A stretch of 44,945 bases of DNA from Crocinitomicaceae bacterium (lineage in GTDB: Bacteria > Bacteroidota > Bacteroidia > Flavobacteriales_D > Crocinitomicaceae), in contig JAKVAQ010000008.1 in assembly GCA_022447665.1 (NCBI GenBank), positions 1 through 44,945 of the forward strand, written 5' to 3'. Made by a program: the position numbers and the translations under genes. The notes under the pieces were generated by a model. It did no database searches, was not told the origin of the DNA, and worked only from the letters and a program-made list of their open reading frames with translations. Shown piece after piece: positions 37,180-42,954 of this stretch; position 1 is the stretch's first letter, and every line of letters starts with the position of its first letter.

Positions 37180-38745
37180 CTACTGTTTTAAAATCCTACC
37201 ATTGTAGGCAGCGCCATTGATTGTCATTGAGTAGAAGTAGATACCGTTTGTAGCTTCTTCACCGATTTTATTAGAACCATCCCATAGAATTTCTTGCTGA
37301 CCAGTTAAATATTGGTTCTCAACTAATTTGTTTACTACACGTCCGTTCAAGTCGTAGATATATACACTTGTGAGTGCATTTTCTCCGGCATCGAACGTAA
37401 TGGTCGTACTTGAATTGAATGGGTTTGGATAAACTTTAATCTCACTTTCTTCATTATACTTTGCCATTTCTGTGCTCAGAAATTCGGTTATAAGTTCATC
37501 CTGATTTATTAATTCATCTCCTGACTGATATGCCATAAAGTGGTAATAAATTAAATACATTTCGTCGGTTGTATTGAACCCTTCGCTAATGTCTTGCGGA
37601 GGGTCATAAGGATTGTGCGTATTCCCCGCAGTATTGTCATAAATGGCTCTACTTTCAATATCAGAACCGGCTGGAACATATTGTAAGTACTGGAACCAAT
37701 AGAAATCTTGCCAATCAAAATCATAATGAGGTATTCTAACAAACTTCACAGTGTCAGAAGCAGGAGTAACTGCAAACGATTGCATGTGTGACCCTAGTAA
37801 GTGCATATGCGGAAACACGCTCAGGAACGTAAAGTCAAATGGAGTGTCATCGAAGGTGTTGTACAAAGTATCAATTGTACCTGCAGGAATAGTAAAGTCA
37901 AATTCCGCGTTTAAAGGCGCGGCATATACTTGACGGAAAGTCGTGGTCATCGGTTCGTCGTAAAAGTAGAAGTTTACAGTCGTGGCGTCCCAAGTACCAT
38001 AACTACCGTGTGGGTAGTGCATTGCGAAGACTACATTTGAACCAGCGCCCATAACCATTCCACATGAAAAATCGTCGTTTGCTGGAAACACTGTTGGGCG
38101 TGTACCTGGCGTATATCCTGCCATTAATGGTTCACTTGATGGGCCACCACAGTCGCCACCAATTGTGTCTGTCGGATAATCGCCATCTTCATCATAATAA
38201 ACAAGACAATGATGAACCGTTGCAGAGTTTCCAGGCACAATCTCAATTGCTCTTACCCTTCTTTCTTCAGTTAAACCTGTTGGCATGGAAATACATACAT
38301 AATCATCTTGAACAACAGTAGCCTTACTCATGTAATTCGGCATTGTGATAGAGAGGTCTGGAGTTCCTGGTAGTATTTTTTCTCCTGTAAAAACTGGCGC
38401 TGGTGGAGCTAACGCAGGATCACCTTCCAATCCTCCTTCATTCACCCAGTTAATAATGGTGTTACGCTCAAGAGGTGTCAAGATTTTTTCGTCAAAATAA
38501 TGCTGAAAGGATGTATCTGCCTTGTATGGAGGCATGTTATTTGCTTCAACCTCTGCCTTGATTAATACTTTATAAATATCCGCGGTAGAGTAATCCAATA
38601 GGGAGAATGGGCCTATTCCATCCGGTCTGTGGCAGACAACGCAATTATCAAAAAAAATCTCTGCCGTATGCTCGCTCCAAGTAGTTTGAGCGTTTGAGTA
38701 CATTGCTGAAAGTCCTGCAAAAGTTAGGAGTAGAAGTCTTTTCAT
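37180..38745 (-). CDS. T9SS-exported heme and copper-monooxygenase-like protein
   Basis: 521 residues from ATG 38743-38745 (MKRLLLLTFAGLSAMYSNAQ, a clean signal peptide). The frame opens ten codons further up, but that lead (MCEQHKRLTI) would spoil the signal. A cytochrome c-type CVVCH site (C35, C38, H39) is followed by a region with histidine motifs of copper type II ascorbate-dependent monooxygenases: TVHHCLVYYDED, VFAMHYPHGS, VFPHMHLLGSHMQ. The C-terminus is a T9SS sorting domain (IKVYPNPFNSSTTITF, then YIYDLNGRVVNKLV). It is probably a surface or extracellular redox enzyme; substrate unknown. Confidence 0.88.
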   Translation of the reverse strand: MKRLLLLTFAGLSAMYSNAQTTWSEHTAEIFFDNCVVCHRPDGIGPFSLLDYSTADIYKVLIKAEVEANNMPPYKADTSFQHYFDEKILTPLERNTIINWVNEGGLEGDPALAPPAPVFTGEKILPGTPDLSITMPNYMSKATVVQDDYVCISMPTGLTEERRVRAIEIVPGNSATVHHCLVYYDEDGDYPTDTIGGDCGGPSSEPLMAGYTPGTRPTVFPANDDFSCGMVMGAGSNVVFAMHYPHGSYGTWDATTVNFYFYDEPMTTTFRQVYAAPLNAEFDFTIPAGTIDTLYNTFDDTPFDFTFLSVFPHMHLLGSHMQSFAVTPASDTVKFVRIPHYDFDWQDFYWFQYLQYVPAGSDIESRAIYDNTAGNTHNPYDPPQDISEGFNTTDEMYLIYYHFMAYQSGDELINQDELITEFLSTEMAKYNEESEIKVYPNPFNSSTTITFDAGENALTSVYIYDLNGRVVNKLVENQYLTGQQEILWDGSNKIGEEATNGIYFYSMTINGAAYNGRILKQ

Positions 38746-38850
38746 TATGGTAAGTCTTTTGTGCTGTTCACACATTACTTGTGTACATAGCCAATAAAGT
38801 TATGAATAATCACTTAGATTTCATAACAATTCTACTTATTTAACCGCTTG

Positions 38851-40058: not shown

Positions 40059-40589
40059 TTAGTTTTTAACGATCTTTCTTTCGATTACACCAATTGCCGA
40101 AATAAATTTCACGACATAGGTACCGTCGGCTTGATTGGATAGGTCAATACTATTTCCGCCAGATTCTTTTGAAATGAGTTTTCCATCCATACCGTAAACT
40201 TCTATATCAATAGTTTCGGTTGAAAGTACCTTGACAACGTCAGTGGTTGGGTTAGGAAAAATTGATAAACCAAAGGGCTCATTTTCATTGATGATGGCCG
40301 AGTTTGCTAGCCCAACAGTAAATGTAAATGTTGCCACACCGCAATAGGAGTCAGTTACTTCAACGGTATAACTTCCAGCCACAAGCCCCGTTAAATCCTC
40401 GTCTGTAGAAGTGAAACTTGATGGACCTGACCAGCTTATGGTGTAAGGAGCAACACCTCCTGCAATCGTTAAATCAATTTCACCATTGCTGAATCCAGCG
40501 TTCTCATCCGTGACAACTGCTGTAAGATCTGCTGCAGATGCAGTAAATCCTAAACCAGACAATACTAAGGCGATTAAAATCTTTTTCAT
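40059..40589 (-). CDS. Secreted SprB-repeat protein with T9SS sorting domain
   Basis: 176 residues from ATG 40587-40589 (MKKILIALVLSGLGFTASA, signal peptide). A ten-codon upstream extension of the frame is rejected as it overlaps the preceding gene. One SprB-like repeat spans ~20-95 (GGVAPYTISWSGPSSF, LVAGSYTVEVTD), followed by a T9SS sorting domain (GLSIFPNPTTDVVKVL ... IEVYGMDGKLI). It is the last gene of the operon, 1 bp after the upstream stop. Confidence 0.85.
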   Translation of the reverse strand: MKKILIALVLSGLGFTASAADLTAVVTDENAGFSNGEIDLTIAGGVAPYTISWSGPSSFTSTDEDLTGLVAGSYTVEVTDSYCGVATFTFTVGLANSAIINENEPFGLSIFPNPTTDVVKVLSTETIDIEVYGMDGKLISKESGGNSIDLSNQADGTYVVKFISAIGVIERKIVKN

Positions 40590-40590
40590 A

Positions 40591-41418
40591 TTACTCGTAT
40601 AAAATGGTACTAAATTCACTTAATATCTCACTTAGTGTTTTCTCTTTGTCCAAGTGGGATTTATCTAAATATTGGAGTTTATTGACATCCTTATTTAAAA
40701 CAAGGATACCATCATTCAGTGTCTTTTGTGGCTTTGCTATTTGAAGTTGCTCAATTTTTTTCTCAGTTACCTTGTAAACGGCCGAACTCTCCATCACCAT
40801 ATGCATTTCATCATCCTTTTCGAATAAAGTAAATTTGCAGCTTTGATAAGGAACCAATACTGATGATTGTTTCCATTGATAATTTTCAAAATACCAAACC
40901 GTCCATTCGTTTTGGCAAGTCACAACCATCCAGTATTTTTCTTTGAAATAGACGGCATCAAAATAGTAAGTGTCAAGCGACTTAAATCGCTGAGCGATAT
41001 ATCTGTAAGGATCATTCGGCGCATACATGTAATTGTCAACGCTTATCAGAATAACATCGCCTGGGTGTTTATAATTTCCCCAGTCTTGCAAACTGTCCAA
41101 AGGAATTTTCTTAATTGCTTCATACCTATCATTAAGCGGGTGCTCCAAAGTACTAACCGCAAAAATATCCTTCTCATTGATGTCCCAAGCTAGCTCGTTA
41201 TCATTGCCACCAAGCATTCTTCCTGCCGGTAAAGCTAAAGATTGAGAAGTTAACAAAGTGTCGTCGATACTTCCTGTGTGGTAGGTTCCAATTTGAAAAA
41301 GCGGGTCTATAGAAACACAATGATATTTCCCGTTTTCTATAATGATCTTGCGATCAATAATCATAGCCAAGCTTGAAGAGGCCCATAAAAGAATTGATAT
41401 GGTAATAATGTTTTTCAA
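40591..41418 (-). CDS. Secreted protein of unknown function, middle gene of operon
   Basis: 275 residues. The signal peptide is MKNIITISILLWASSSLA. The mature part is rich in aromatic residues and short strand-like stretches (TYYFDAVYFKEKYWMVVT, WYFENYQWKQSSVLVPYQ), possibly a beta-propeller-like fold, but no family is recognised. It is 4 bp downstream of the transglutaminase-like gene and 1 bp before the sorting-domain gene. No sorting domain of its own is visible. Confidence 0.72.
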   Translation of the reverse strand: MKNIITISILLWASSSLAMIIDRKIIIENGKYHCVSIDPLFQIGTYHTGSIDDTLLTSQSLALPAGRMLGGNDNELAWDINEKDIFAVSTLEHPLNDRYEAIKKIPLDSLQDWGNYKHPGDVILISVDNYMYAPNDPYRYIAQRFKSLDTYYFDAVYFKEKYWMVVTCQNEWTVWYFENYQWKQSSVLVPYQSCKFTLFEKDDEMHMVMESSAVYKVTEKKIEQLQIAKPQKTLNDGILVLNKDVNKLQYLDKSHLDKEKTLSEILSEFSTILYE

Positions 41419-41422
41419 ACCT

Positions 41423-42682
41423 CTAGTAAGTGGTAGTTGTGCTTGTTAAAGAAGATTCTGATAAATCATCCGTGAAAAGACAGTGTTTTATTGAGCCTGG
41501 ACCCCACCCAATAGTGTATCGGTAACCCCATCCATCGAAAGCGGTAGGTGCTATATCATCGAATGTAGGAAAGCTCACACCGTATGAAGGGTCATAATAA
41601 ACACCATCGATATAACAGATTTGGTGATTATTAAAAAAAGAACTTGGGTTTGCAGAGCCTTGTCCATAAATCCCAACTTGATCCGTTACGTCTTCAGTAT
41701 CAAAATCGTAGGCAGTATATGGAAAAGGTAGTAGACTCGTATACGTGTTTTTATATGGAAAAGCAGCACATTCTCCCGATGCAGATGGCGTTCCAAACTC
41801 CCAGTTCTTTACTAAGAATCGATTCACTGAATTTCCACAAACTGTATTGCCTATCGGTGTAATATAAACGTAATTATTCGTTCTAACTATTCCTTGTATT
41901 TTGATGGTAGCTAGAAAGAGTTTGGCGAAAGTATAGCACTGTGCATTATTGAACATTAATAATGAAGCTAAAGAAGTATTGAATGTATACATTGGGTTAT
42001 AGTATTTTAGACTGTCTCCTTGCCAATTCAACATTTCTTGGTCTTGAAAATCTGTCCAAATTCCAGCTATAATGTCGCTTTCTGTGCTTTCTCCATCCGT
42101 GTTTCTACACGAAATATCGAAAATAGTTCTCCAATGTTGAAAATCCGAATTTTCTGACATAGGTGTATCGTGAGTTACGTACATTACGTTTTTTGTGCTG
42201 TCAGCATTTCGCCAAGTTGTTCCATCATCGAAAGAAACGTCCCAGCCAATACTGAAAGGACCGAAATAGCGAGATTCATCAGGTGTAAATCCTGCATCTG
42301 CTGTTGTGTTAGGATAAGAGAATTCAAATTCACCAGCGCCCACATTTGTTATTTCTACTTTGGTGGCAGGGAAATTCATACCATCAGGAGCAACCCCCAT
42401 TACCCAAATAGAATCAGGAGCATCAGCACACATAAAGGTGAAATTGGCTGAAATTTCTGGGGCTGTTCCACTCACATACGCTACGGGCTCTTGCTCCGTC
42501 TCACTCACATCATAGTGTGGTATTCCATCAGCGTATATTCCTGAGCCATCATCTTTACGAATATCTAACGTAGGTCCTGCAAAGGTTGCTGTTTCCACCT
42601 CAATACTCGAATATGTAAAGTCTTGAGCATTTGTTGTGTGTAGAAGTGCAGCTGCGGCGGTAAGCGTAAAAAATCGAATCAT
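41423..42682 (-). CDS. Secreted transglutaminase-like cysteine protein
   Basis: 419 residues with a signal peptide (MIRFFTLTAAAALLHTTNAQ). After a beta-rich N-terminal half, a transglutaminase-like core shows the probable triad C249 (NNAQCYTFAKLFLATI), H353 (FFNNHQICYIDG) and D364 (VYYDPSYG). This fold makes or breaks amide bonds at peptides. The C-terminal tail is Ser/Thr-rich (SSLTSTTTTY), with no T9SS signal. It is the first gene of the operon. The inverted repeat GACTA-AAA-TAGTC lies upstream at 42700-42712. Confidence 0.78.
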   Translation of the reverse strand: MIRFFTLTAAAALLHTTNAQDFTYSSIEVETATFAGPTLDIRKDDGSGIYADGIPHYDVSETEQEPVAYVSGTAPEISANFTFMCADAPDSIWVMGVAPDGMNFPATKVEITNVGAGEFEFSYPNTTADAGFTPDESRYFGPFSIGWDVSFDDGTTWRNADSTKNVMYVTHDTPMSENSDFQHWRTIFDISCRNTDGESTESDIIAGIWTDFQDQEMLNWQGDSLKYYNPMYTFNTSLASLLMFNNAQCYTFAKLFLATIKIQGIVRTNNYVYITPIGNTVCGNSVNRFLVKNWEFGTPSASGECAAFPYKNTYTSLLPFPYTAYDFDTEDVTDQVGIYGQGSANPSSFFNNHQICYIDGVYYDPSYGVSFPTFDDIAPTAFDGWGYRYTIGWGPGSIKHCLFTDDLSESSLTSTTTTY

Positions 42683-42855: not shown

Positions 42856-42937
42856 GCAGGCGTGGTGGAATTGGTAGACACGCTAGACTTAGGATCTAGT
42901 GCCGCGAGGTGTGAGAGTTCGAGTCTCTCCGCCTGTA
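42856..42937 (+). tRNA. tRNA-Leu (anticodon TAG)
   Basis: 82 nt. The acceptor GCAGGCG pairs with CGCCTGT (terminal G.U), and the discriminator is A. The anticodon stem CTAGA/TCTAG encloses the loop CTTAGGA, giving anticodon TAG. The longer variable region and T-arm (AGAGTTCGAGTCTCT) fit a class II tRNA-Leu. Confidence 0.95.
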
Positions 42938-42954
42938 CATTTTGAACTTAAAAT

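Follow-up and report, generated by a model that had tools for sequence, protein, structure and literature searches.

A conserved three-gene operon in Bacteroidota with a predicted transglutaminase-like enzyme, a probable beta-propeller and a small SprB-repeat protein with a type IX secretion tail

Three adjacent minus-strand genes of a Crocinitomicaceae bacterium (assembly GCA_022447665.1, contig JAKVAQ010000008.1) belong to a real and conserved operon family, which has no Pfam or NCBIfam counterpart for its first two products. The genes, here called P1, P2 and P3, lie in a window of 44,945 nucleotides, the whole stretch of DNA that was analysed. P1 is probably a divergent transglutaminase-like enzyme, P2 is a probable beta-propeller, and P3 combines a single SprB repeat with a sorting tail of the type IX secretion system (T9SS). 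The gene neighbourhood suggests that P1 works on the surface protein P3. The features discussed below are the following.

41423..42682, minus strand: P1, predicted transglutaminase-like Cys-His-Asp protein, 419 aa, ATG start, hydrophobic N-terminus
41936..41938, minus strand: codon of P1 C249, predicted nucleophile, invariant in 23/23 proteins, aligned with the Cys of ordinary transglutaminase-core domains
41624..41626, minus strand: codon of P1 H353, predicted catalytic His, invariant in 23/23, also aligned in a separate profile comparison
41591..41593, minus strand: codon of P1 D364, predicted catalytic Asp, invariant in 23/23, also aligned in a separate profile comparison
40591..41418, minus strand: P2, predicted beta-propeller (moderate confidence), 275 aa, TTG start, hydrophobic N-terminus
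40059..40589, minus strand: P3, one SprB repeat and a T9SS type A tail, 176 aa, ATG start, hydrophobic N-terminus
40422..40496, minus strand: SprB repeat of P3 (PF13573)
40062..40262, minus strand: T9SS type A sorting tail of P3, aa 110-176 (TIGR04183 and PF18962)

The genes are separated by 4 bp (P1-P2) and 1 bp (P2-P3), the latter counted from the P3 ATG at 40589, with an upstream GTG at 40619 not taken as the start. This confirms the compact three-gene arrangement given in a preliminary description of this DNA, and a hydrophobic stretch is found at the N-terminus of all three products alike. P2 starts with TTG in the window (41418) and in one relative (G008; L009 7315) and with ATG in the eight other relatives checked; the TTG is possibly a damped start. 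The Bacteroidetes-type promoter motif, TAnnTTTG, was matched 5 times against 5.1 expected, and sigma-70 and terminator scans gave results at chance level. Consequently, no promoter or terminator is claimed for the operon. A tRNA-Leu gene (42856-42938, plus strand) is divergent from P1 and has a TAnnTTTG match just upstream; matches to the motif, this one included, are not commoner here than in shuffles. Elsewhere in the window, 37180-38775 (minus strand) encodes a protein of 531 aa that has a T9SS type A tail and a C-terminal domain of the copper type II monooxygenase kind. Its CxxCH stretch goes with cytochrome c matches that stay below cut-off, and it may be a secreted oxidoreductase of copper or haem type.

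The order P1-P2-P3 on one strand was found in all 11 close loci that were read (the window, G008, G011, G030, G288, G243, G330, G340, G195, L006 and L007), so that the trio does occur together elsewhere; its absence from other genomes, which the preliminary description would have taken as a refutation, is not what is seen. The P1-bearing genome G1092, from the scan of one genus, was left out of this reading. Across ten of the loci (G030 left out), spacing ranges from -1 to 12 bp between P1 and P2 and from 1 to 45 bp between P2 and P3, with 7 and 45 bp, respectively, in G288. The genes that flank the trio are not the same in the window, in G008, in the genus of G011 and in L006/L007. Contig ends split P1 in G030 and in G793 (L007). 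In G030, P2 is also interrupted by an in-frame stop, which leaves one broken gene in two pieces. Between G288 and G243, dN/dS is 0.057 for P1, 0.102 for P2 and 0.125 for P3, values that are rough with dS near 1. The unbroken association in the close loci, together with the low dN/dS, argues that the trio is more than a chance arrangement.

P1 is a single-copy gene in the window's genome. It is present in 4 of 59 relatives (the window's own genome counted), in 9 of 399 genomes of the order, representing 3 of 70 genera, and in 8 of the 9 genomes of one genus, where the sole miss is a genome that is 67% complete. A scan of genome contigs returned three P1 loci. Two of them, L006 and L007, were new and belong to metagenome assemblies of Bacteroidota. 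Two samples of the phylum gave P1 in the window's genome only (1/395 and 1/385), with a first-look filter that may miss distant members. P2, searched independently, occurs in exactly the nine order genomes that carry P1, and it is a single gene in each (in G030, the two pieces of the broken gene). Because seven of the nine belong to one genus, they are not independent, and a chance estimate for the sharing of 9/399 genomes was discarded for this relatedness.

P1 has no match in Pfam or NCBIfam up to E 10, and none in a sequence search of solved structures. The enzyme call draws on an alignment of 23 P1 proteins, which are 22-59% identical to the window protein. Eleven columns are invariant throughout, those of C249, H353 and D364 included, and the Cys, His, Asp order of the transglutaminase-like superfamily (PF01841) is kept in every row. 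Conservation is highest in the two catalytic stretches, with mean pairwise identities of 0.68 and 0.76 versus 0.53 in the N-domain. The P1 core profile was compared with 29 transglutaminase-core domains of the window's genome and of its relatives. It scored 34.9, against 15.6 for the best of 100 column shuffles and 17.3 and 12.5 for control profiles of P2 and P3. The His-Asp half by itself scored 18.4 (at most 14.6 in shuffles), and its alignment pairs the His and Asp of P1 with those of known transglutaminase-core domains. The hhalign probabilities are modest, at 58.7 for the core and 4.3 for the His-Asp half. The Cys-His-Asp triad proposed in the preliminary description is thus supported, both by its invariance and by a profile match above shuffled controls, and P1 is probably an active, divergent member of the superfamily. 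Both of its halves align with Transglut_core (PF01841) by profile, in the same residue order; it differs in its own long N-terminal region and in lying nearly out of Pfam's reach, with weak matches in 6 of the 23 members (best E 0.0013) and none in the window protein. Scattered weak matches of P1 members to other Pfam families (BNR, Mo-co_dimer, Imm41, RbmA-like and others) were set aside. An AlphaFold2 model from four sequences (pLDDT 36, pTM 0.30) gave no usable fold.

The Por_Secre_tail family matches none of the 23 P1 members, and P1 therefore probably works in the periplasm. It could still leave the cell, since some proteins may be exported by the T9SS even though they have no classical tail, according to the available part of one source (PMC7073777).

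Among described systems, LapG offers a likeness. It is a periplasmic transglutaminase-like enzyme that cleaves the adhesin LapA, as presented in the accessible portion of PMC3032545, and like P1 it combines a Cys-His-Asp arrangement with a gene near that of a surface adhesin. According to the same portion, LapA uses type 1 secretion, whereas P3 has a T9SS tail. The calcium site of BTLCP/LapG proteins is formed by acidic residues flanking the catalytic Cys (PMC13090378, in the text available), whereas an acidic pair around the Cys is found in 0/23 P1 proteins, L056 having a Glu on one side only. Furthermore, the 23 members matched 15 families at E up to 1, and PF06035 was not one of them. With the calcium site absent and no Pfam match, P1 was rejected as a BTLCP/LapG (PF06035) protein. 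The Lap system includes a LapD-type c-di-GMP receptor; the P1 operon differs in having a beta-propeller candidate as its third partner. HvyA of Caulobacter, too, is a transglutaminase homologue that is exported, has a Cys-His-Asp triad and acts on the envelope; it differs in being of the BTLCP family and in preventing capsulation (PMC4241560, as far as its excerpted text goes).

P3 is matched by TIGR04183 at 48.8 bits (cut-off 23), by Por_Secre_tail (PF18962) at 44.4 bits (cut-off 27) and by the SprB repeat (PF13573) at 32.9 bits (cut-off 28), and the sorting domain and repeat first ascribed to the third gene are therefore borne out above curated cut-offs. The idea of a 'surface system', put forward at the same time, stands for P3, which has the sorting tail, and not for P1 (0/23 members with a tail) or P2 (0/10). 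The mature P3 protein is little beyond a single SprB domain and a type A tail. It differs from the SprB gliding adhesin, which the sections available of PMC10202324 describe as very large and with a type B tail. In the window's genome (G000), there are 118 SprB repeat matches, in ORFs of up to about 3000 aa, and such matches were found in 0/14 control genomes.

The middle protein, described earlier as having no known family, still has none in Pfam (no match) or NCBIfam (one family, far below cut-off). A sequence search of solved structures returned three matches, with E 0.19 or worse. The model of P2 (pLDDT 61.5, pTM 0.66) resembles a beta-propeller, and its best structural match is VIA (Z 9.8, rmsd 4.1, 211 aligned). 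On the strength of this model, P2 is a probable beta-propeller. Many propellers that are unrelated to one another match it structurally, with Z 8.0 to 9.8 among the matches listed, and for this reason no function was derived for it.

We read the trio as an enzyme-partner-cargo operon, in which P1 would carry out amide-bond chemistry on P3 or SprB-type cargo in the periplasm and P2 would dock or regulate it. This reading is plausible, if somewhat short of probable. From sequence and gene order, we infer the location of P1 and P2, the activity and substrate of P1, and the role of P2 as follows. P1 would be exported by Sec and, having no sorting tail, would remain periplasmic. Its triad would catalyse amide-bond chemistry, most likely hydrolysis, on P3 or similar SprB-type cargo in periplasmic transit toward the T9SS. 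P2, as a probable beta-propeller, might dock or regulate P1, and P3 would be exported and anchored at the surface.

Hydrolysis is preferred because LapG, an adhesin-linked enzyme of the same superfamily, is a periplasmic protease in the part of PMC3032545 that was available. The main rival to hydrolysis is transamidation: P1 could be a true transamidase that crosslinks or anchors small P3 domains, either mutually or to another surface partner. The triad is the same as that of the superfamily, and a mature P3 of one SprB domain and a tail has the size of a polymer subunit. However, no Lys or Gln is invariant in the aligned P3 domain, where the conserved residues are mainly Gly, Pro, aromatic or small, plus one Cys, and P1 seems to be periplasmic while P3 is exported to the surface. 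A transamidase is, on balance, unlikely. The P3 alignment shows no cleavage motif either, and this, like the missing Lys and Gln, counts against the reading of P1 as acting on P3-type cargo.

More distant relatives bear on the choice of substrate. L006 belongs to genome G792, in whose order P1-like proteins occur in 16 of 298 genomes. The 16 distant loci read comprise those of 14 of the 15 other genomes (G855, with the weakest P1-like match, was left out), a second locus in G891 and a paralogue in G793. A P3-like gene, called at a P3 profile E of 3.3e-14 or better, is second after P1 in 7 of the 16 (L054, L056, L057, L061, L063, L065 and L067). These counterparts are 194 to 1689 aa long, and the protein is spread over two ORFs in L063 and three in L067. 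The Pfam SprB model is above cut-off in five of the seven; L056 and L057, where it falls short, have proteins with a T9SS tail above cut-off. In L055, SprB-type ORFs lie farther downstream, after two other genes. In L062 (4705-6885), SprB-like or PKD-like repeats are N-terminal to the P1 core within one putative lipoprotein that has a lipobox-like stretch; the repeats match the P3 profile at E 3.1e-6, and in Pfam give only a PKD match below cut-off. The loci L060 and L066 end before any third gene. No SprB-type gene lies beside P1 in the other five (L052, L058, L059, L064 and L068), including L052 (486-2516), a second P1-P2 pair without P3 that is the paralogue in G793, a genome which also holds the L007 trio. 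For comparison, ordinary transglutaminase-core genes have a P3-like ORF no more than 1.5 kb away in 2 of 30 loci.

Action of P1 on SprB-type cargo is the simplest reading, because the context holds even where the length of the cargo and the middle gene vary from locus to locus; the seven distant loci, with cargo of up to 1689 aa, count in its favour. Counted against it are the five loci without an SprB-type neighbour, the paralogue L052 among them, the sub-threshold SprB domains of L056 and L057, the commonness of SprB genes in the host (118 repeat matches), the modest hhalign probabilities, and the chance that P1 leaves the cell without a classical tail. The same five loci and the same abundance of SprB genes would be expected if P1 were a broader periplasmic peptidase or amidase, working on the envelope or peptidoglycan, with P3 merely co-expressed. 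That explanation appears rather improbable, as P3 stays third in 11/11 close loci, P3-like proteins of very unequal lengths follow distant P1 relatives in 7/16 loci, and ordinary transglutaminase-core genes have such a neighbour in 2/30.

The middle gene, examined in 15 of the 16 distant loci (L062 left out), is matched by the P2 profile in six and not in nine. The middle proteins of L058, L060 and L068 are alike, and are perhaps linked to P2 through L059. Six others are only 162-199 aa long and show no relation to P2 in the profile test. Ten middle proteins that lie outside the clear P2 family, that of L059 among them, were tested, and every one has an N-terminal hydrophobic stretch, as P2 does. 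In G891, the contigs L059 and L068 each carry a P1-like gene or fragment followed by a similar middle gene, and L068 has a further P1-like start at its end; this arrangement is a possible tandem duplication.

A changing middle gene and the faster divergence of P2 relative to P1 would also fit a toxin-like system, with P1 as a secreted cysteine effector, the next gene as its immunity and P3 as a T9SS delivery or surface partner. The TANFOR polymorphic toxins of Bacteroidetes likewise adjoin SprB-repeat T9SS proteins, and the P-value of SprB is below that of any other Table 1 row listed (PMC7073777, from the part available). However, P1 has neither a TANFOR domain nor a swapped toxin end: the same catalytic core is present in 23/23 proteins without domain swapping, and TIGR02542 is unmatched in all of them at E up to 1, so that P1 was rejected as a TANFOR toxin. 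The nine order genomes, each with one P2, also lack extra immunity-like copies. A toxin-like role is accordingly very unlikely.

In the literature searched on transglutaminases together with SprB repeats, type IX secretion or gliding motility, the pairing of a P1-type enzyme with SprB was not found. T9SS cargo is processed by the sortase PorU and is glycosylated or phosphorylated in places (PMC10202324, in the sections available). If P1 acts on cargo as proposed, a dedicated cysteine enzyme for SprB-repeat proteins would be a further layer of T9SS cargo processing, and P3, at 176 aa, is a small substrate suited to direct tests. A wider and more doubtful proposal is that the trio represents an undescribed enzyme family specialised on SprB-repeat surface proteins. 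Its transglutaminase-like enzyme would cut SprB-type adhesins or link them covalently, and would so decide whether the cell retains them, with the propeller or another exported partner as a specificity factor or brake. Such a family might be a T9SS counterpart of the Lap switch, and SprB-type proteins would gain a candidate switch for their release or crosslinking.
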